Positions 1 through 6,623 of a stretch of DNA of 6,623 nt are shown piece by piece. The notes beneath the pieces were generated by a model. It made no database searches. It was not told where the DNA came from and worked only from the letters and a program-made list of their open reading frames with translations. Source of the stretch: an uncultured Armatimonadota bacterium. Lineage in GTDB: Bacteria > Armatimonadota > Fimbriimonadia > Fimbriimonadales > Fimbriimonadaceae. Location of the stretch: positions 1-6,623 of the forward strand of contig CAMLEL010000137.1 of NCBI GenBank assembly GCA_946478935.1, in the 5' to 3' direction. Position numbers and translations under genes: made by a program. Positions within the stretch are counted from its first letter, which is position 1; each line of letters opens with the position of its first letter.

Positions 1-2823
1 TCGCGCTACTATGCGATCACGAAGTCCAGATGATATGTTTGAGATTTGATCGAGCCCAACTCGGATGCCTCCCCTTGGAACGATCATGTGGTTATCAGCG
101 ACGTCTTCGACGGTGAACGCACGTTCGCTGATGTTCACATCTGGACGGCGAATCTCAACGCCGCGATTTCTGGCCTCATTGGAAATCGTGCAGGGACCGT
201 AGTATCCAGCAGGCTGGGCGTTCAGAAGCGCGGCAAAATATTCAGTAGGATAGTTTTGCTGACACCAGACGCTTCGAATGGAGATTTCTGCGAATGCCAA
301 GGCGTGGCCCTGGGCAAACCCGTATCCTTGGAATACAGCAACTAGCTCGTAGACCTCATTTGCAGTTCGAAGGTCATATCCGTTCTGGACGATCTTGGCG
401 ATGATGTCATCACGGACTTGTTTGACAAACTCTTCTCGTCGACGCTTGTGAATCGCTTCGCGCAACTCTTCTGCCTCACCCGGTGTATAGCCACCAAAAT
501 GTTCGAGGAGTTGATCGACCTGCTCCTGGAAAACGATAATCCCGTACGTATTCCCCAGAATGCGCTCAAGGTCTGGATGGGTGAAGGAATACGGTTTGCC
601 ACGCCTTCGTGCGATTAACTCGTTGATTTTTACGGCTCCGCCAACGCCGGGACGGATACCGGCTTGGACAAGGCTGGCGTCATTGAGGTTTTCGGTTCTC
701 AGCCGAATGTGTGCTTGCCGCATTGCCGGTGAAGCAGATTGAGGAATGCCGATCAGATTTCCGGATCTGAATGTACGGAACACCTCCTCGTCCTTCAAAT
801 CGATCTGTTCCAATTGAAAGCTGGGTTCGAGCTCGGAGATGGATTTTTGTGCGCTGCTCAATACATCGTTGCCTCGGAGACAGAGCACATCGAATTTGTC
901 GAAGCAACGTTTTGCACTGCGCTTGTCCCATTGGATAATCCGAACGTCATCCATTCCCGAGTACATCACCGGAACACGGTTGCAGATCGGTTCGCTGGAC
1001 ACGATCACGCCAGATGAGTGCGCTCGCATATTACGGGGCATGTCCATCATGCGTTCCGCTAGACGAAACACCCAGTGGAAGCGTTCACGTGGGATCCCGC
1101 TGTCACGCAGCTCGGGACGAGCGTCGATTGCCGCTTCGAGCTTTTCTGGTGAGACCCCTCCATGCAGCCTCTTGGCGAGATAGGAAACGGATTCATCAGG
1201 AATCCCCATTACTTTCCCAACCTCTCTTACAATGCCTCTGGATCCATAGGAACCAATGGCAGCTACGGTGGCCACATGGTCCTTCCCGTACTTTTGGACA
1301 AGGTGTTGACGCACATCCTCGCGGCGGCTGGCTTCAAAGTCAATATCGATATCTGGCCGTTTACTACCGTCCCCGGGGAGGAACCGCTCAAAGTGCAGGT
1401 CATGTTCATAGGCGTCGATTCGTGACAAACCTAGACAATAGGCGACTGCTGAGTCAACAACTGACCCTCTGCCGCTAAACAGAATCCCCTGGTTTCGAGC
1501 CCAGTCGCACATCTCCCATGCAATAAGAAAGTGATTCGCGAACCCGAGTTGGATGATTCGTGCCAACTCACGACCAATTCTTCTACGGTATCCATCTGGC
1601 CATTTCGGTCGGATCTCCTTTGCTCGCGCAATCACGATTTCCCGGAGTGCAACGTTATCATCATCAAAAACCATTGGAAGGGGTGCGAGACCAGGCAAGA
1701 TTTCATCCTCACACATATCGGCAATCATCAATGTGTGATCCAACAATTCAGGTACGTCACTATATATTTGACTTAGTTCATTAGGAGAGCGAATGAACTG
1801 CTCAGCATTGATGCTGCGACTTGGGAATATTGGACATTCGGGTTGCGAACGATCACGTGGTGATTTGCGTCCCGTAATCTCTTCGATCAGGCAAAGTGTT
1901 TCAACGCAACTCAGTACATCCTGCACCACAAAGTGTTCCCGTTTCCCCAATGAAGTCTGACCTCCAGCGCAACAAAGAACTTTACGTTTCTTGGCCAAAT
2001 CCATCAACTGGTTGTTTACAGCCGTTTCCCAAGGTTGGTATGTGCGTTCGATTTGGATGAAGGTAGGGAAAAGAGATAGGAGCCGAGCGAGCATTTCATC
2101 GGCTTTGGCGAACTTACGACCCATCAAGAGTCGATTGAGAGGGCCTGCATGCCCTCCGGTCAGACAGATGAGTCCTTGGTGGTGTTTGGCCAGTCGCTCC
2201 CAATTGCAAAGCGGATGGAGTCGAGGCTCATTCAGGTGACATTCAGTGATTAGGTAAGAGAGTGATTGCCATCCATGCGAATTCTGTGCGATCAAAACGA
2301 TCTCACCGCCTTCGGACAACTCGAACGATGCGCCAATGATTGGCTTAATGCCAACCTTTCGCGCGATCTTATCGAACTCATGCGCACCGCTCACCGACAT
2401 CCGATCGGCAAGTAACACCGCCGAGACTCCTTTGGAAGCTGCAATGGCCGGGATTTCTTCGGCGAGCATTGAGCTTCGACCAAAGCTGTAGCCGCTCACC
2501 GTATGAAGCAGGGCATAACTGGATCGGTGATTGATCCCGCTCAGCTTTGGAAGACGAATTGGTTTGACAAGCCCACATGCCTTGGCAACTTTCTCATCTC
2601 GAATCTTCTTGACCCGTAAATCCCAGTCTTCTCGTTGATCCTCGTGATATGGCTCAAAGTTGAAGACTTCGTATGAATTGGCAAGCGAAGGCATTTCAAG
2701 TATGGATTCTCTGTGAACTCCTTTCTCGTCACGTTTGCGATGGATCTCTCGGTATGGTTCTCCATTCCACCATTCACCCGCCTCTCGCCATACTTGGTGC
2801 GAGTCAGACCCAGCCGGTTGCAT
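1..2823 (-). CDS. dnaE2: DnaE2/ImuC-like error-prone DNA polymerase III alpha subunit, 3' end beyond the window
   Basis: Translating the minus strand from the ATG at 2823 gives 941 codons without a stop to base 1, so only the C-terminus (the OB-fold and tail in this family) is missing. This is a C-family replicative-type polymerase, probably the translesion enzyme of a mutasome. Residues 1-60 form an extension with VWREAGEWWNGEP (11-23). A PHP domain starts near residue 97; its metal ligands are mostly lost (V109 for the second His, DR at 140-141 for D-H). The polymerase core follows: GRGS at 451-454, PDIDIDF at 490-496, KFD ending at D645, QEQV at 766-769, GYGFAQGHA at 833-841. The aspartates D491, D493 and D645 keep exactly the spacing of E. 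coli DnaE D401/D403/D555, so catalysis should be intact. The start is fixed by AAGGAG seven bases upstream and an in-frame TGA just before it. Overlap with imuB implies translational coupling. DnaE2 rather than DnaE1 is inferred from the ImuB neighbour and motif variants such as RPGVGG and FAQGHA. Confidence 0.9.
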   Translation of the reverse strand, partial: MQPAGSDSHQVWREAGEWWNGEPYREIHRKRDEKGVHRESILEMPSLANSYEVFNFEPYHEDQREDWDLRVKKIRDEKVAKACGLVKPIRLPKLSGINHRSSYALLHTVSGYSFGRSSMLAEEIPAIAASKGVSAVLLADRMSVSGAHEFDKIARKVGIKPIIGASFELSEGGEIVLIAQNSHGWQSLSYLITECHLNEPRLHPLCNWERLAKHHQGLICLTGGHAGPLNRLLMGRKFAKADEMLARLLSLFPTFIQIERTYQPWETAVNNQLMDLAKKRKVLCCAGGQTSLGKREHFVVQDVLSCVETLCLIEEITGRKSPRDRSQPECPIFPSRSINAEQFIRSPNELSQIYSDVPELLDHTLMIADMCEDEILPGLAPLPMVFDDDNVALREIVIARAKEIRPKWPDGYRRRIGRELARIIQLGFANHFLIAWEMCDWARNQGILFSGRGSVVDSAVAYCLGLSRIDAYEHDLHFERFLPGDGSKRPDIDIDFEASRREDVRQHLVQKYGKDHVATVAAIGSYGSRGIVREVGKVMGIPDESVSYLAKRLHGGVSPEKLEAAIDARPELRDSGIPRERFHWVFRLAERMMDMPRNMRAHSSGVIVSSEPICNRVPVMYSGMDDVRIIQWDKRSAKRCFDKFDVLCLRGNDVLSSAQKSISELEPSFQLEQIDLKDEEVFRTFRSGNLIGIPQSASPAMRQAHIRLRTENLNDASLVQAGIRPGVGGAVKINELIARRRGKPYSFTHPDLERILGNTYGIIVFQEQVDQLLEHFGGYTPGEAEELREAIHKRRREEFVKQVRDDIIAKIVQNGYDLRTANEVYELVAVFQGYGFAQGHALAFAEISIRSVWCQQNYPTEYFAALLNAQPAGYYGPCTISNEARNRGVEIRRPDVNISERAFTVEDVADNHMIVPRGGIRVGLDQISNISSGLRDRIVAR

Positions 2824-3949
2824 CTCGCCACTCCTTCAGAACCCTCAGTCGCCTTGGAACAACCAGATCCTTTCCAAGCTTGACTGAATCCTCGCCAAAA
2901 CTTTTTCGGACACATTTCAGGGCAGAGTCAGCCCGGGACAATTTTTCTCTCATCAAAAGCTGATCAAAAGATTGTTGGTGCGGCGACTTGTGCTCCAATT
3001 CAAAGAGTCGAATCCTAATCTCTTGAACCGGTTGCTTGTTGTCCAGAGAATCAAAAAGTCGTTTCATTGCAAAGTAGACCGAACGCGGATCAGAGATTGG
3101 CCTCGTAAACGTTCTTTGATCAAGCAGTGTGCTGGCATCTTCCATAAGGAGAGTCAACGAGATCCTGGACCCAAAGGCATCGAGTCGTTTCAAATGACGA
3201 CCTACCCTGTGGGCAAGCTTGGTCAGTGTTCGATCGATAATCTGAATGTCGTCGATTGGTTCTGGAAAGACAAATCGATCACCGATTGAGCGCTCTGGGT
3301 ATTGCGCTTTCACGCGCTCGCCGCCTTCTCCTCTCAATGCGCTATGGATCGCTAGTCCCTCTTCGCCGAATTGTCGAAGAAGGGTTTCAAGCGCAATCTT
3401 TGCAGCATCACCACATGTCCGATAACCAAGAAAGCTAAGTCTCTCTGCATGGGCTCCTTGAATGGCCGAAACCGCTTCAACCGGTATATCCGCCATGAAT
3501 CTCCGAGGATCAAACACTGCATCGAATACAGGATCACCATGAGTTGCAGCTAACTTGGCCAGCCATTTGTTCTTCGCCAGGCCACCACGAGCGTGATCGA
3601 TGGAATCCAGTAAGGACCGATAGGTGGAAACGGGGTCTGGGTGCCGGGATAGGTCGATCCAGGCAGAGTGCTGAGCATCGATCTCAATGGTGTCACTGAA
3701 TTCCGCGACTCTATCCAGCCAAGCGCGTGCAGCATTGACATAGGAGTCATGATGCCACTCTCGAAAAGTGCCCCCCATTAGGCAAGCTTTAGCATCGCGT
3801 GAAGACATTTGAGCATGGACCCTGCGGGTTTCTGCAGCCAAGTTGATGTCCAGAATCTTCTTGTTCTTCAAAACCACGGCTGGCATGGGATCATGTTCCA
3901 GTCCAAGTTCCCGAACATAGAATCTCTGGATGTAAATGTATCCGATCAA
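2804..3949 (-). CDS. imuB: ImuB-like catalytically inactive Y-family polymerase homologue
   Basis: 381 residues with the Y-family layout: palm/fingers 1-150 (AKNKWLAKLAA at 125-135 is the conserved 'A.NK.LAKLAS' element), a helix-hairpin-helix thumb at about 155-212 (IPVEAVSAIQGAHAERLSFLGYRT, read in two parts), a little finger to about 345, and a short C-terminus. The catalytic acids are gone. The N-terminal strand reads YIYIQRFY where active enzymes have a D.D motif, and the 'SIDEAYLDL' position reads AQHSAWIDL (92-100), with H94/S95 replacing D/E. This is the hallmark of ImuB, the clamp-binding scaffold that recruits ImuC/DnaE2. A clamp-motif candidate is QSFDQLLM (326-333), degenerate against the QLxLF type. 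The protein is short against the usual 450-520 residues, lacking most of the C-terminal tail. Start is TTG with GGAG six bases upstream; a TAG lies in frame just above, so no longer start exists. An inactive DinB-like protein is the alternative. Confidence 0.82.
   Translation of the reverse strand: MIGYIYIQRFYVRELGLEHDPMPAVVLKNKKILDINLAAETRRVHAQMSSRDAKACLMGGTFREWHHDSYVNAARAWLDRVAEFSDTIEIDAQHSAWIDLSRHPDPVSTYRSLLDSIDHARGGLAKNKWLAKLAATHGDPVFDAVFDPRRFMADIPVEAVSAIQGAHAERLSFLGYRTCGDAAKIALETLLRQFGEEGLAIHSALRGEGGERVKAQYPERSIGDRFVFPEPIDDIQIIDRTLTKLAHRVGRHLKRLDAFGSRISLTLLMEDASTLLDQRTFTRPISDPRSVYFAMKRLFDSLDNKQPVQEIRIRLFELEHKSPHQQSFDQLLMREKLSRADSALKCVRKSFGEDSVKLGKDLVVPRRLRVLKEWRDATGWV
2831..2836 (-). promoter_or_regulatory. 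Shine-Dalgarno site of the DnaE2-like gene
   Basis: AAGGAG on the minus strand lies seven bases before the ATG at 2823, inside the last codons of imuB. It supports a true independent start there instead of frameshift continuation of imuB. Confidence 0.8.
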
Positions 3950-3978
3950 GTAGAACTCCGTCTACTATTATAGACGGA
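3950..3978 (-). promoter_or_regulatory. imuB-dnaE2 promoter with overlapping operator dyad (candidate SOS box)
   Basis: A perfect -10 hexamer TATAAT sits on the minus strand at 3972-3967; the -35 at 17-bp spacing is poor (CTGAAG at 3995-3990). The -10 lies inside a perfect dyad: arms TCCGTCTA (3957-3964) and TAGACGGA (3971-3978) with a 6-bp spacer. A further half-site GTAGA (3950-3954) pairs with TCTAC (3961-3965), so TAGA/TCTA/TAGA recur at 3951, 3961 and 3971 with exact 10-bp phasing. A protein bound here would block the -10 and the start region. Mutasome operons are commonly LexA-controlled; this dyad is not the Gram-positive GAAC-N4-GTTC or the E. coli CTG-N10-CAG type, so naming it a LexA site is inference. 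Confidence 0.7.
3956..3959 (-). promoter_or_regulatory. Ribosome binding site deciding the TTG start of imuB
   Basis: GGAG on the minus strand, six bases before TTG at 3949-3947. It overlaps the outer edge of the operator dyad. The in-frame TAG at 3964-3962 excludes any upstream start. Confidence 0.65.
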
Positions 3979-4003
3979 TATTTCAGTATCTTCAGCTACC
4001 AAG

Positions 4004-4127
4004 TTCTCCCCATTTTTAGCCGCTTTTCCACATCCGAGCGAGTTTGTCTCTCACTGCCGTCTTTTGCAAACAACCGATAGGTTCAACCTCAAAAAACTTA
4101 TCCCCAAATCGCGGTTGCTTTTCCCCA
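4004..4127 (+). other. Cluster of DnaA-box-like 9-mers in gene-free DNA
   Basis: Three same-direction 9-mers differ little from TTATCCACA: TTTTCCACA (4024-4032), TTATCCCCA (4098-4106) and TTTTCCCCA (4119-4127); a weaker TTCTCCCCA lies at 4004-4012. No dnaA, dnaN or AT-rich unwinding stretch is visible, so this is a weak candidate for DnaA binding and could be chance in a C-rich spacer. Nothing else is apparent in 3979-4177, and I see no convincing plus-strand promoter there. Confidence 0.25.
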
Positions 4128-4177
4128 ACCACTACCAGGACGCGCTGTTCTGTCCTAACATATCCGTGTGCTCAGAA

Positions 4178-4306
4178 ATGAGCCGCAAGAAGAAGAAGCC
4201 GATACCGATGACGGATCGCATGACGGACTTCGAAAGAAGCCCAACTCCAAGCGAGATGTCGACCTTATTCGGCCGAATCTTCGAGGTGAGATTCAGTTTC
4301 GACTGA
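4178..4306 (+). CDS. Possible 42-residue basic mini-protein
   Basis: ATG to TGA, beginning MSRKKKKPIPMTDRMTDF, with a lysine-rich N-terminus and GC-rich third positions (roughly three quarters G or C). There is no good Shine-Dalgarno sequence and no family I recognise. The same bases contain tetraloop hairpins (4228-4239, 4267-4278), and the stop falls inside the hairpin 4291-4308, so the composition may reflect RNA structure instead of coding. Confidence 0.2.
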   Translation: MSRKKKKPIPMTDRMTDFERSPTPSEMSTLFGRIFEVRFSFD

Positions 4307-4314
4307 GTTGAACC

Positions 4315-4428
4315 ATGGATTCGAAAGAATCCAAACCGCATCCGGCCACAGAATGGCAAATTGACTGGCAGATCTCGAAAGAGATTTCCCCAGAAGAAGA
4401 GCCGACCTCGGCAGGATGCAAAACCTAA
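4315..4428 (+). CDS. Possible 37-residue acidic mini-protein
   Basis: ATG to TAA, beginning MDSKESKPHPATEWQIDW and ending in SAGCKT. It starts eight bases after the preceding mini-ORF. No ribosome site is convincing and third-position bias is neutral. Two perfect GAAA hairpins (4317-4332, 4370-4387) lie within it, which favours a structured-RNA reading. Confidence 0.18.
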   Translation: MDSKESKPHPATEWQIDWQISKEISPEEEPTSAGCKT

Positions 4429-4678
4429 CTCTTTAGGGAGTTGGGACTTGCATGGAGAAGCTTAGGCATCTCGGTGCTGGTTCCGAAAGGAACCAAACAT
4501 GGCGATAGTTGCCCAATGACGACTATCCGAGGATCTCCGAAAGGAGCATCAGGCGGGTAGAAGTCGACCTCGGTCAACATCATCGCCCTTCTGATCGCCG
4601 CAAGGCGAACAGAAAGCGCGAAGGGTGGGCTCCGGCCCACCAGTCGCGGGGACCTCTCTCGGGAGCGTTCCATCAAAT

Positions 4679-4746
4679 CGGTCCAAAAGACCGACGAGAG
4701 AGGGCTTCGGATTCTTGAATCTGCGGCCCTTTTCTCTTTTGGACCG
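4679..4746 (+). repeat. 12-bp perfect inverted repeat bracketing the terminator
   Basis: CGGTCCAAAAGA (4679-4690) is the exact reverse complement of TCTTTTGGACCG (4735-4746). Forming this helix pairs the terminator U-tract with AAAA and destroys the 4678-4694 hairpin, so the two folds exclude each other. The A-tract/U-tract part is common in bidirectional terminators; the extra CGGTCC/GGACCG is not explained by that. Confidence 0.75.
4696..4740 (+). terminator. Rho-independent terminator of the structured RNA
   Basis: GAGAGAGGGC (4696-4705) pairs with GCCCTTT and CTC (4726-4736, one T bulged, one G.U), capped by an inner stem CGGATT/AATCTG (4708-4713, 4718-4723) with loop CTTG, followed by TTTT at 4737-4740. 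It ends 27 bases before the downstream ATG, so it could act as an attenuator. Confidence 0.7.
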
Positions 4747-4756
4747 CATCGCAACG

Positions 4757-4762
4757 TAGAAT
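4757..4762 (+). promoter_or_regulatory. Candidate -10 element of a leaderless promoter
   Basis: TAGAAT lies five bases before the ATG at 4768, where no Shine-Dalgarno sequence is visible. This is the spacing expected if transcription starts at or next to the ATG. A 17-bp-spaced -35 would fall in the terminator tail (4734-4739) and is not recognisable. Confidence 0.35.
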
Positions 4763-4767
4763 AATCC

Positions 4768-5184
4768 ATGCCTTCTGGATGGGTTCGAACGGGCCTGAAG
4801 TCGACACTGTATATCGCGATCGTCGCTGTGATCGTGGGACTTTACGCTTGGGTCTCACCGGAGGCATTCGCTCGCATCCCCGAGCAGCGTGATGAGTCCA
4901 TCGCCGGTGACTGGTATGTCGATCGTTACGGCAGTTTCCGCAAATACTCTTTTCGAATGGACGGCACGGGCGAAATCCTCTCGGCCGCACGTGAACCCAG
5001 GGTTTTTAGGTGGGGTGTGGAGAATGGGCAACTCCGCATGAAGTTTCAAACTTCGGCTGGTTGGCAAGCCCCAACCTACCGCATCGAAAGGTTCCCCGAG
5101 GGCCCGCTCGAACTCCAAGATTCAAAAACGGGTTATCGGATTCTTTTGAAGCGCGACGTGCCCAAGAGCGCGACCTTGCAGTAG
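4768..5184 (+). CDS. Small membrane-anchored extracytoplasmic protein of unknown function
   Basis: 138 residues. A short basic N-terminus (R7, K11) precedes one hydrophobic segment at about 13-30 (TLYIAIVAVIVGLYAWV), acting as signal anchor or uncleaved signal peptide. The exported part starts with AGDWYVDRYGSFRKYSF and continues with DGTGEI and FRWGVENGQLRMKF. The pattern (G-W near the start, F-x-x-DGTG, then W-x-x-x-x-G-x-L) resembles short lipocalin-like beta-barrel proteins that many bacteria export. I do not recognise a named family and assign no function. It starts 27 bases after the terminator, lacks a ribosome site, and may be leaderless or attenuated. Its last 63 bases lie opposite the end of the convergent gene at 5122-5634. 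Confidence 0.7.
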   Translation: MPSGWVRTGLKSTLYIAIVAVIVGLYAWVSPEAFARIPEQRDESIAGDWYVDRYGSFRKYSFRMDGTGEILSAAREPRVFRWGVENGQLRMKFQTSAGWQAPTYRIERFPEGPLELQDSKTGYRILLKRDVPKSATLQ

Positions 5185-5664: not shown

Positions 5665-5955
5665 TCACGCATCAGATTGGCCCGAGTTTGCGGCTCCATA
5701 AAGCATCCACCCGATGATCATCATCAAGAATCCACCGCCCGACATGACCATGCCGATCGCTGCCCAGATAAACAAGTCAGAAGGGTTCTTCAGACTCAGG
5801 ATGTAGAACATCAACCCGAGAATCAAAGACATTCCACCCAGCCAGGCGATCGTTCCGCCGAAAACACGCATAGGATTAGGATCGATCAGATTTGAATCTG
5901 ACCAGTCCCTGTTTTGTAGGACCTCAGCTCTTTTGTTCGAAGATAGACCGGACAT
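5665..5955 (-). CDS. Small two-TM membrane protein
   Basis: From the ATG at 5955 this gives 96 residues: a polar N-terminus (MSGLSSNKRAEVLQNRDW...), then two hydrophobic segments at about 30-52 (VFGGTIAWLGGMSLILGLMF) and 61-87 (LFIWAAIGMVMSGGGFLMMI), and a short polar tail. It is a helical-hairpin inner-membrane protein with no recognised family or function. The start is uncertain: ATG 6000 or TTG 6009 would lengthen it and deepen the overlap with mcsB, while ATG 5871 would remove the whole polar N-terminus and leave a 52-bp spacer containing a hairpin. No candidate has a good Shine-Dalgarno sequence. I chose 5955 because the residues before the first TM look protein-like and the overlap with mcsB is small (32 bp), as in a coupled operon. 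Confidence 0.6.
   Translation of the reverse strand: MSGLSSNKRAEVLQNRDWSDSNLIDPNPMRVFGGTIAWLGGMSLILGLMFYILSLKNPSDLFIWAAIGMVMSGGGFLMMIIGWMLYGAANSGQSDA
5884..5903 (-). repeat. 8-bp hairpin at the mcsB / two-TM gene junction
   Basis: On the minus strand GGTCAGAT and ATCTGATC pair (one G.U) around the loop TCAA. No T-run follows, so it is not a terminator. It lies just past the mcsB stop and may serve mRNA stability, processing or a start at 5871, or be chance. Confidence 0.4.
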
Positions 5956-6623
5956 ATTCGGAGCGTAATCGAGCCGCTCGCTCTTCAACGCCGCTGGCAT
6001 GTAGTTCAAGGTGTGTCAGTTGGGCATCTATTTCGCGGGGTGCAAATCGAAAGCCGTCGACATCGGCATAGGCAGCCCAGCGCGCAAAGGCAAAGATTCG
6101 CATGGCATCTGGCAAGTTTAAACCTCGAGAGGACAGTGCAAATTCTCGTACCTGCATCGCCCTCTGGATCAGCATCGGCCTGGGAAGCGAATGCCGGGCA
6201 TCACGCTCCTCATTGATGAGGTACTCAGCGGCGCCTACAAATTCGTTGATGTTTCCACTGACGATGCTCACTTGCACAAATGCCCCTACCGCACGGCTGC
6301 TCTCTCCAAAGATCCCGCGCGCAACGATGCCCTGTGCCGCCAACGCCTTGAGAACCGCTGGAAGTCGCTTGGAGTGGGCCAAGCCTATCAAATGGAACAG
6401 CGCGGAAAGTCGATGACCCTTGCCAGTGTTATACGGGGATGCCGCCAAATATCCGAACCGGGGCGACCAGGCAAACTCCAGCGACCTGCCAAGCTCCTCT
6501 TTCCCCGCGCTGGCAATCGCCTGAGCGGTACCGGCGGACCAACCTGCGGTAAGACCTTGAATTCGCAGGTGATCCTCTTCATTGATCATCACGCACAAGG
6601 ACTCGTCCTTGTTCAGGACCAGG
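5924..6623 (-). CDS. mcsB: McsB-like protein-arginine kinase, 5' end beyond the window
   Basis: The frame is open to the right edge and gives 233 codons, about two thirds of an McsB (about 350 residues). McsB is a phosphagen-kinase-fold enzyme that phosphorylates arginines on proteins, marking them for ClpCP. The family signature is clear: LNKDESLCVMINEEDHLRIQ at the start (NEEDH at 6583-6569), a GYL...P.N.G.G.R.S loop (6454-6404), VARGIFGES (to about 6298), NEERDAR, and a helical C-terminus ending LRSEYVRSIFEQKS. Several key positions differ: the CPTNVGTG loop reads SPYNTGKG, so the catalytic Cys is Ser, and the C-terminal RDxxRA phosphoarginine-binding motif is not preserved (ERAARLR). The arginine in the loop (R.S) and the RG..GE motif remain. 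In Firmicutes the gene sits with ctsR-mcsA-clpC; those neighbours would be off the right edge. Downstream it overlaps the two-TM gene. Identity is sure, activity is not. Confidence 0.9.
   Translation of the reverse strand, partial: LVLNKDESLCVMINEEDHLRIQGLTAGWSAGTAQAIASAGKEELGRSLEFAWSPRFGYLAASPYNTGKGHRLSALFHLIGLAHSKRLPAVLKALAAQGIVARGIFGESSRAVGAFVQVSIVSGNINEFVGAAEYLINEERDARHSLPRPMLIQRAMQVREFALSSRGLNLPDAMRIFAFARWAAYADVDGFRFAPREIDAQLTHLELHASGVEERAARLRSEYVRSIFEQKS

Follow-up and report, generated by a model that had tools for sequence, protein, structure and literature searches.

A predicted modular structured RNA gene with its own putative promoter region in an Armatimonadota bacterium

Large structured RNAs are uncommon in bacteria, and many owe their discovery to being widespread. 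What, then, is to be made of a densely folded, gene-free stretch in a single uncultured Armatimonadota bacterium? The window (the whole 6,623-nt stretch of DNA that was analysed, contig CAMLEL010000137.1) contains such a stretch, which a preliminary description, made from the letters alone, had placed at 4200..4740 and read as a possible large structured RNA. Its setting is as follows.

1-2823, minus strand: DnaE-like polymerase, incomplete at the window end and oriented divergently from the RNA
2804-3949, minus strand: Y-family IMS protein, head to head with the RNA
3957-3978, minus strand: terminator-like hairpin just upstream of the polymerase pair
4168-4740, plus strand: putative structured RNA gene of ~573 nt, its start predicted from promoter geometry and its end from a terminator-like stem
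4768-5184, plus strand: gene for a 138-aa protein whose DUF5640 match is weak and under the cut-off
5924-6622: McsB-like protein arginine kinase, truncated where the window ends

We conclude that 4168-4740 of the plus strand is very probably a previously unlisted structured RNA gene; that it is an independent noncoding RNA gene, taking this part of the claim alone, we hold with high confidence. The stretch has a minimum free energy (MFE) of -256.5 kcal/mol, while 100 dinucleotide shuffles of it give -187.4 (sd 7.5), a z of -9.2 (the fold of 4170-4745 gives z -8.9). Of the 14 hairpin loops in the MFE structure of 4140-4745, seven are GNRA (GAAA six times, GCAA once) and one is UUCG. A screen for hairpins with four-nucleotide loops and stems of four or more pairs gave 20 on the plus strand, including 8 with GNRA loops (one being a second register of another), and 28 on the minus strand, none of them GNRA. 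The same asymmetry is seen in two related genomes, G015 and G016: GNRA hairpins number 8, 7 and 10 (window, G015, G016) on the plus strand and 0, 0 and 0 on the minus strand. The stems and tetraloops in one orientation that had first drawn attention to the locus are thus present, and the end first proposed for it stands, while its start lies nearer 4168.

The reverse strand of the stretch also folds well (z -8.1), because inverted repeats must fold on both strands. The plus strand was called from the GNRA loops, from G-U versus A-C cells (45 vs 12, a count biased to the plus strand in that the structure was predicted on it), from plus-strand energies that are better than those of the minus strand, and from the 3' stem with its T-run. 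On this sequence evidence the feature reads as a structured RNA of the plus strand.

Does it belong to a known class? Searches with Rfam (15), which we take to include GOLLD, ROOL, OLE, 6S and CsrB, returned matches at E 1.4, 4.7 and 5 for the window and at 0.11 and 0.82 for two relatives, all below the gathering score, so that no family membership was assigned and the first impression that no known large RNA could be recognised held up. The match to BjrC68 (E 4.7, below the gathering score) falls on the terminator stem. A divergent housekeeping RNA, tmRNA above all, might be suspected from the finding that tmRNA is over cut-off in G014, G005 and G066, whereas the two genomes that carry the long RNA, G015 and G016, have none over cut-off. 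On the other hand, neither ARAGORN nor RF00023 assigned the locus to tmRNA (ARAGORN found none in the window or in loci L045 and L046), G016 also lacks SmpB, which G015 has, and dnaA is not over cut-off in either genome. With no dnaA over cut-off in either and no SmpB in G016, these drafts look incomplete. We regard this explanation as extremely improbable, and tmRNA replacement was dropped after the tmRNA, SmpB and ARAGORN searches. RNase P was present in all five genomes tested.

Relatives of the RNA are few. Among 113 genomes of the class, blastn gave a match at E <= 0.01 in nine, two of which are real homologs: G015, matching in two pieces at 79-81% identity, and G016, whose match, at 76%, lies at the 3' end. 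By eye, the matches in G029, G062 and G083 are ordinary, coding-like sequence; those in G003, G058, G060 and G073 were taken as chance on score alone. R1, a covariance model for which the 3' domains of the window, G015 and G016 served as input, matched three of the 113 genomes, namely G015, G016 and, falsely, G022, where it hit a coding region with a terminator. Over the phylum, with stricter filters and only part of the first-look candidates scored (e.g. 12 of 72), R1 found G015 and G016 only, 2 of 291 at E <= 0.001; two matches in G074 are short and lie in coding-like sequence. Each of the two homologous genomes has the RNA at one locus by blastn and R1 (again with part of the first-look candidates scored), which is not the many copies per genome of a REP/BIME element. 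Exact 3'-domain patterns were absent from viral contigs (0 occurrences), and blastn against phages and plasmids gave no match. The McsB orthologs of G015, G016 and G014 are 75%, 72% and 69% identical to that of the window, and the next is at 56%; by this ranking, the window and the three genomes form a close clade, to which the RNA is, as far as seen, limited. The plus-strand RNA reading of the whole feature is built from these four species. No paper joining Fimbriimonas and noncoding RNA was found in the literature covered, and Armatimonad, Fimbriimonas and Chthonomonas are absent from the main texts of a 26-genome and a 50-genome RNA survey (PMC8632094, PMC11109978).

The stems are not merely present in G015 and G016; the pairings are kept there beyond controls, though not all of them. 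For a structure-blind alignment of the three sequences RNAalifold gave an energy of -156.2; 60 column-class shuffles of it gave -78.9 (sd 6.2), which corresponds to a z of -12.5. In this alignment 48 of 157 pairs change on both sides, a count of covarying cells that, like the others given here, is inflated by the relatedness of the rows, and 47 of the 157 have a broken member. The window and G015 alone give an alignment z of -10.5, and 24 of their 151 pairs change on both sides. The window MFE, for whose prediction G015 was not used, was also projected on the window-G015 alignment: both sides change in 21 of 195 pairs (shuffles 10.5 ± 2.3, with 0/500 reaching the count; slid controls 0-6) and 90.6% of cells are paired (shuffles 86.4; slid 34-48), while 36 of the 195 pairs are broken and 8 have gaps. 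Projected the other way, the G015 MFE has 204 pairs, of which 17 change on both sides, 40 are broken and 24 have gaps. Broken pairs are scattered over several helices, including the first hairpin, which is aligned one base off. Compensatory changes therefore stand above both shuffled and slid controls, and together with the fold and alignment z they support the reading as a large structured RNA. Neither of the outcomes that the preliminary description had set down as refuting it, an Rfam hit or a loss of the pairings in homologous spacers, was obtained. They also bear on whether the stretch could be a repetitive coding gene. One minus frame is indeed open over all 255 codons in G016, but the window and G015 have stops in all six frames and differ by gaps of 1, 4 and 29 columns, and with the compensatory changes added we give a coding origin almost no credence.

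The body of the RNA is modular, which the preliminary description had overlooked, along with a regulatory region at 4004-4161 and a short version of the RNA, in G014, with the same promoter. A core of ~105 nt is present in three divergent copies in the window, three in G015 and four in G016, followed by a common 3' domain. The elements of the window are these.

4168-4274, plus strand: module 1 core, with two GAAA hairpins and ACCUU in the internal loop
4285-4314, plus strand: extra arm of module 1, UUCG-capped (window fold)
4316-4419, plus strand: module 2 core, with two GAAA hairpins and ACCUC
4422-4477, plus strand: two further hairpins of module 2 (window fold)
4478-4581, plus strand: module 3 core, with two GAAA hairpins and ACCUC
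4589-4614, plus strand: GCAA-capped arm 3' of module 3 (window fold)

G016 has three tandem copies of ~171 nt with 84% matches, and the window and G015 carry diverged copies of the same unit. The order within the core is H-a, a CAAAC joint, P0, an internal loop with ACCUM, P1 and H-b. H-a has a GNRA cap in most copies and H-b in 10 of 10. CAAAC itself occurs in about half of the copies, with close variants in the others. P0 is ccRGCC paired with GGCagg; P1 pairs AUGRC with GYCG, A-U and G-C alternating between modules of one RNA. ACCUM, on the 3' side of the internal loop, is ACCUU in two copies and ACCGR in three G016 copies. Most modules also contain the palindrome GUCGAC, lost in the second window module (GCCGAC), the second of G015 (GCCCAC) and the first of G016 (CUCGAC).

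The ten cores (window 3, G015 3, G016 4) were aligned over 117 columns (alignment A7, in which H-a of the first G015 module sits one column off). A 23-pair module structure leaves 86.8% of the cells paired, as compared with 73.4 ± 1.7 in shuffles (0/500 reach it) and 44% when slid by ±1, a control that leans towards the structure in that the pairs were set by hand while viewing these sequences. Both sides change in 17 of the 23 pairs (shuffles 8.7 ± 1.7, 0/500 reach it). A covariance model of the module (R2), applied to 62 sources, namely 61 of 131 loci plus the window, recovered the 10 input modules and nothing else below E 0.7.

The loops of the modules are uniform within two of the RNAs: GAAA in 6/6 for the window and GCAA in 6/6 for G015 although the stems differ (five by alignment column, H-a of the first module seen in the sequence). 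Such uniformity fits one shared partner. The joint switch could also be repeat homogenisation or drift in one lineage, and the set of G016 is mixed (GCAA in 5 of 8, one of the remainder being GAAC, which is not GNRA). The recurrence of the CAAAC joints and ACCUM loops suggests a different role. Base-pairing RNA regulators exist, and single-stranded joints or ACCUM loops might pair with mRNAs here; but the conserved segments are mostly in helices or GNRA loops, and with ACCGA or ACCGG in three of the four G016 modules a fixed seed is not kept, which makes a base-pairing regulator unlikely in our judgement. An anti-Shine-Dalgarno role of ACCUC was dropped on account of the same three modules.

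Downstream of the modules, the RNA ends in two further elements.

4615-4695, plus strand: conserved 3' domain, including the 4617-4648 arm (CGCGAAGGGTGGGC / GCCCACCAGTCGCG)
4696-4740, plus strand: terminator-like stem and T-run, with a GCGGCCC arm common to G014; absent from the list of a simple scan

The stem at 4696-4738 has 17 pairs, with all cells paired in the window and G015. By eye, this stem and the T-rich run after it read as a terminator, the interpretation given to them originally; a simple terminator and promoter scan of 3900-4900 nevertheless listed no plus-strand terminator, and 0 sigma-70 promoter-like sites. The GCGGCCC arm is found in 4/4 loci, with a T-run that is clear in three and weak in G014. 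A perfect 12-nt inverted repeat (4679-4690 / 4735-4746) spans the stem and offers an alternative pairing; by eye, it is not kept in G015 and G016.

Upstream, the regulatory region 4004-4161 belongs with the RNA and has the following features.

4004-4012, plus strand: putative operator box 1 (TTCTCCCCA), 8/9 to TTWTCCMCA, with an equivalent array position in G015 and G016
4024-4032, plus strand: putative operator box 2 (TTTTCCACA), 20 bp after box 1
4098-4106, plus strand: putative operator box 3 (TTATCCCCA), at 74 bp from box 2, a distance that is 75 in G015 and G016
4119-4127, plus strand: putative operator box 4 (TTTTCCCCA), 21 bp after box 3
4156-4161, plus strand: putative -10 TAACAT, lying 37 bp from where box 4 begins, with the first hairpin 12 bp further on

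Boxes, defined by at least 8/9 agreement with TTWTCCMCA, stand at 1678, 1698, 1773 and 1794 in G015, which has one more on the other strand, and at 1296, 1316, 1391 and 1411 in G016. The spacings are fixed at 20, 74-75 and 20-21; between species the boxes are 83-86% identical and the spacers 37-47%. The counts in ~205 bp (4, 5 and 4 for the window, G015 and G016) were reached by 0/2000 shuffles per locus, a test that is not independent, as the consensus was read from the same loci counted. The exact consensus occurs three times in the whole window, always in this array, and 1/200 shuffles reaches 3. By locus, the -10 elements are TAACAT, TAACAT, TAAAGT and TAGAGT; in 4/4 loci the distance is 37 bp from the start of the last box to the -10 and 12 bp from the start of the -10 to the first hairpin, the -10 positions having been picked by eye with the 37/12 spacing in view.

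The 113 genomes of the class contain three perfect box pairs (spacing 20). They belong to G014, G015 and G016, one to a genome, and each stands ahead of the RNA. Allowing up to one mismatch, pairs occur in 10 of 113 genomes, while a backward control pattern yields 4 pairs in the same genomes. Downstream of the ten pairs, the fold is strong only behind the three perfect ones (z -5.5, -4.6 and -4.6, the G015 stretch being taken from its second pair), the other seven ranging from -1.5 to 1.4. Those seven one-mismatch pairs without a fold were not counted as evidence, given that the control pattern itself gave 4. In locus L126 (G033), a one-mismatch pair lies ~70 bp before what by eye appears to be the ftsZ start, and it may be chance. 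Taken together, we infer that the RNA is very probably a modular one with its own promoter region and terminator, yielding a predicted transcript that would start from this promoter under the control of an activator.

Could the locus be a DNA element instead, such as a repeat array, a cruciform, an origin or a DnaA titration site, to which the RNA is incidental? The boxes resemble the DnaA box, and their counts of 4, 5 and 4 were never reached in shuffles; there is a small local dip in cumulative GC skew near 4200, and three near-matches occur within 250 bp near dnaA of G005. However, the GNRA strand asymmetry, the excess of G-U cells and the T-run that follows the 3' stem, like that stem itself, point to RNA, and the array ends at a promoter of fixed geometry. 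The skew dip is shallow and followed by deeper values, with a local GC of 0.48, and four other dnaA loci, covered to at most 1.5 kb on each side, are without a comparable cluster. We therefore consider a DNA element highly unlikely; the origin reading was dropped on the dnaA loci, the skew and the GNRA and strand evidence.

G014 has a single box pair, the perfect one, followed by a fold of ~155 nt (z -5.1; -5.5 in the comparison of ten pairs). In this fold a 3-bp stem with a GAAA loop forms the first hairpin, and the terminator-like stem contains GCGGCCC with a weaker T-run. R1 scores this RNA at 20.4 bits (E 0.009 over 36.6 kb, a rough figure); the R2 match inside it (10.8 bits, E 2.5) is no better than several chance matches in the same list and is no evidence taken by itself. 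We judge homology to the long form likely for the promoter and the 3' end only, the sequence of the body giving no confident module. The GNRA screen (stem of at least 4) finds 0 in the G014 stretch and 1 in the unrelated locus L131, and so cannot separate short forms.

The neighbouring genes bear on whether the RNA serves one of them. The DnaE-like protein is over the cut-off of TIGR00594 and below that of the error-prone subfamily model, and, over the best segment, shares 57-66% identity with five MAGs that carry the names Armatimonadetes, Fimbriimonas or Fimbriimonadaceae, which places the window near Fimbriimonas. A head-to-head "DNA-damage polymerase operon", as it had been called, is a fair description for the window, but tblastn found neither the polymerase nor the IMS protein on the RNA contigs of G015 and G016, which are only 3.3 and 5.0 kb long. 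The 138-aa protein on the other side has three relatives besides itself among 5.8 billion proteins, one of them encoded on a 452-kb contig; by eye, its N-terminus is hydrophobic. In G016 the RNA is followed by a homolog of it (33% identity) and then mcsB. In G015, contig C114 with the RNA ends in the C-terminal part of an opposite-strand amylase-like gene ("amylase" being a reading of the translated sequence, with no database match), and contig C108 starts with the N-terminal amylase-like part, followed by the 138-aa homolog (48%) and mcsB; the two contig ends overlap by 20 bp. As the sequences read, gene order is kept in three species, yet another gene can intervene between the RNA and the 138-aa gene.

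A leader or attenuator of the 138-aa gene would have a same-strand gene adjacent downstream, and this is what is seen in the window, where the RNA ends 27 bp before the start codon, and in G016, where it precedes the gene. The terminator-like stem is present in all four species, however, and in G015 the opposite-strand amylase-like gene intervenes, which together disfavour such a reading; furthermore, the short RNA of G014 has no 138-aa gene in the 32 kb of its contig that were searched. A leader is thus very improbable, and the 138-aa gene is probably not controlled by the RNA.

As to function, we favour, with low confidence, a multivalent protein-binding RNA. An activator would bind the boxes on one face of the DNA, switching on a promoter whose -10 is recognisable and whose -35 is poor, and the RNA would thus be made under one signal. 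Less surely, each module would present two GNRA-capped arms and the ACCUM internal loop to the same protein, so that the RNA would act as a multivalent platform or sponge and the number of modules would set its capacity. Multivalence draws its strongest hints, which fall short of proof, from the variable module number (3, 3 and 4, with a short form in G014) and from the loops that change together. The whole statement, joining the RNA gene, an activator-driven promoter and a multivalent protein platform or sponge, is tentative, close to an even call and slightly short of it.

An assembly of RNA alone would make different use of the same loops. The RNA might adopt a compact tertiary fold through GNRA loops and their receptors, perhaps self-associating by analogy with GOLLD, ROOL and OLE, which according to PMC12286853 are homo-oligomers, some symmetric, held by A-minor contacts and kissing loops. 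The size of the RNA, its many GNRA loops and the palindrome found in most modules fit this possibility, but a variable module number ill suits a fixed cage, the palindrome is lost in some modules, and there is neither an Rfam match nor an identified receptor motif; it seems to us unlikely. Returning to the multivalent RNA, it may be part of a larger picture, which we offer as speculation and think improbable: a class that grows and shrinks by tandem module duplication behind a single operator, with evolving valency, loops that switch with a co-evolving partner, and a DnaA-like activator coupling it to replication state. Modular short and long forms open the growth and role of large RNAs to test, through comparison of species and through the addition or removal of modules in a laboratory host. 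Although limited to one small clade as far as seen, the RNA combines a rigidly spaced promoter region with a modular build.

It remains to place the locus beside known systems. The DnaA box is TTATNCACA, and the array here likewise consists of TTTTCCACA-like boxes in phased direct repeats; unlike it, several boxes of the RNA locus have C at position 7, and the dnaA loci read contain no comparable array. CsrB and RsmZ are sponge RNAs with repeated GGA in hairpin loops. The present RNA shares with them small repeated hairpins and a variable number of sites, but none of the 14 hairpin loops of the window MFE has GGA, which sets it outside that class, and its modules are larger, with P0, an internal loop and P1. 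GOLLD, ROOL and OLE are several hundred nt long. Like them, the RNA is highly structured, and GOLLD has a conserved GAAA loop, according to PMC12286853; what distinguishes the RNA described here, apart from the lack of an Rfam match, is a duplicated module of variable number, a box-pair promoter region and its occurrence in one clade.
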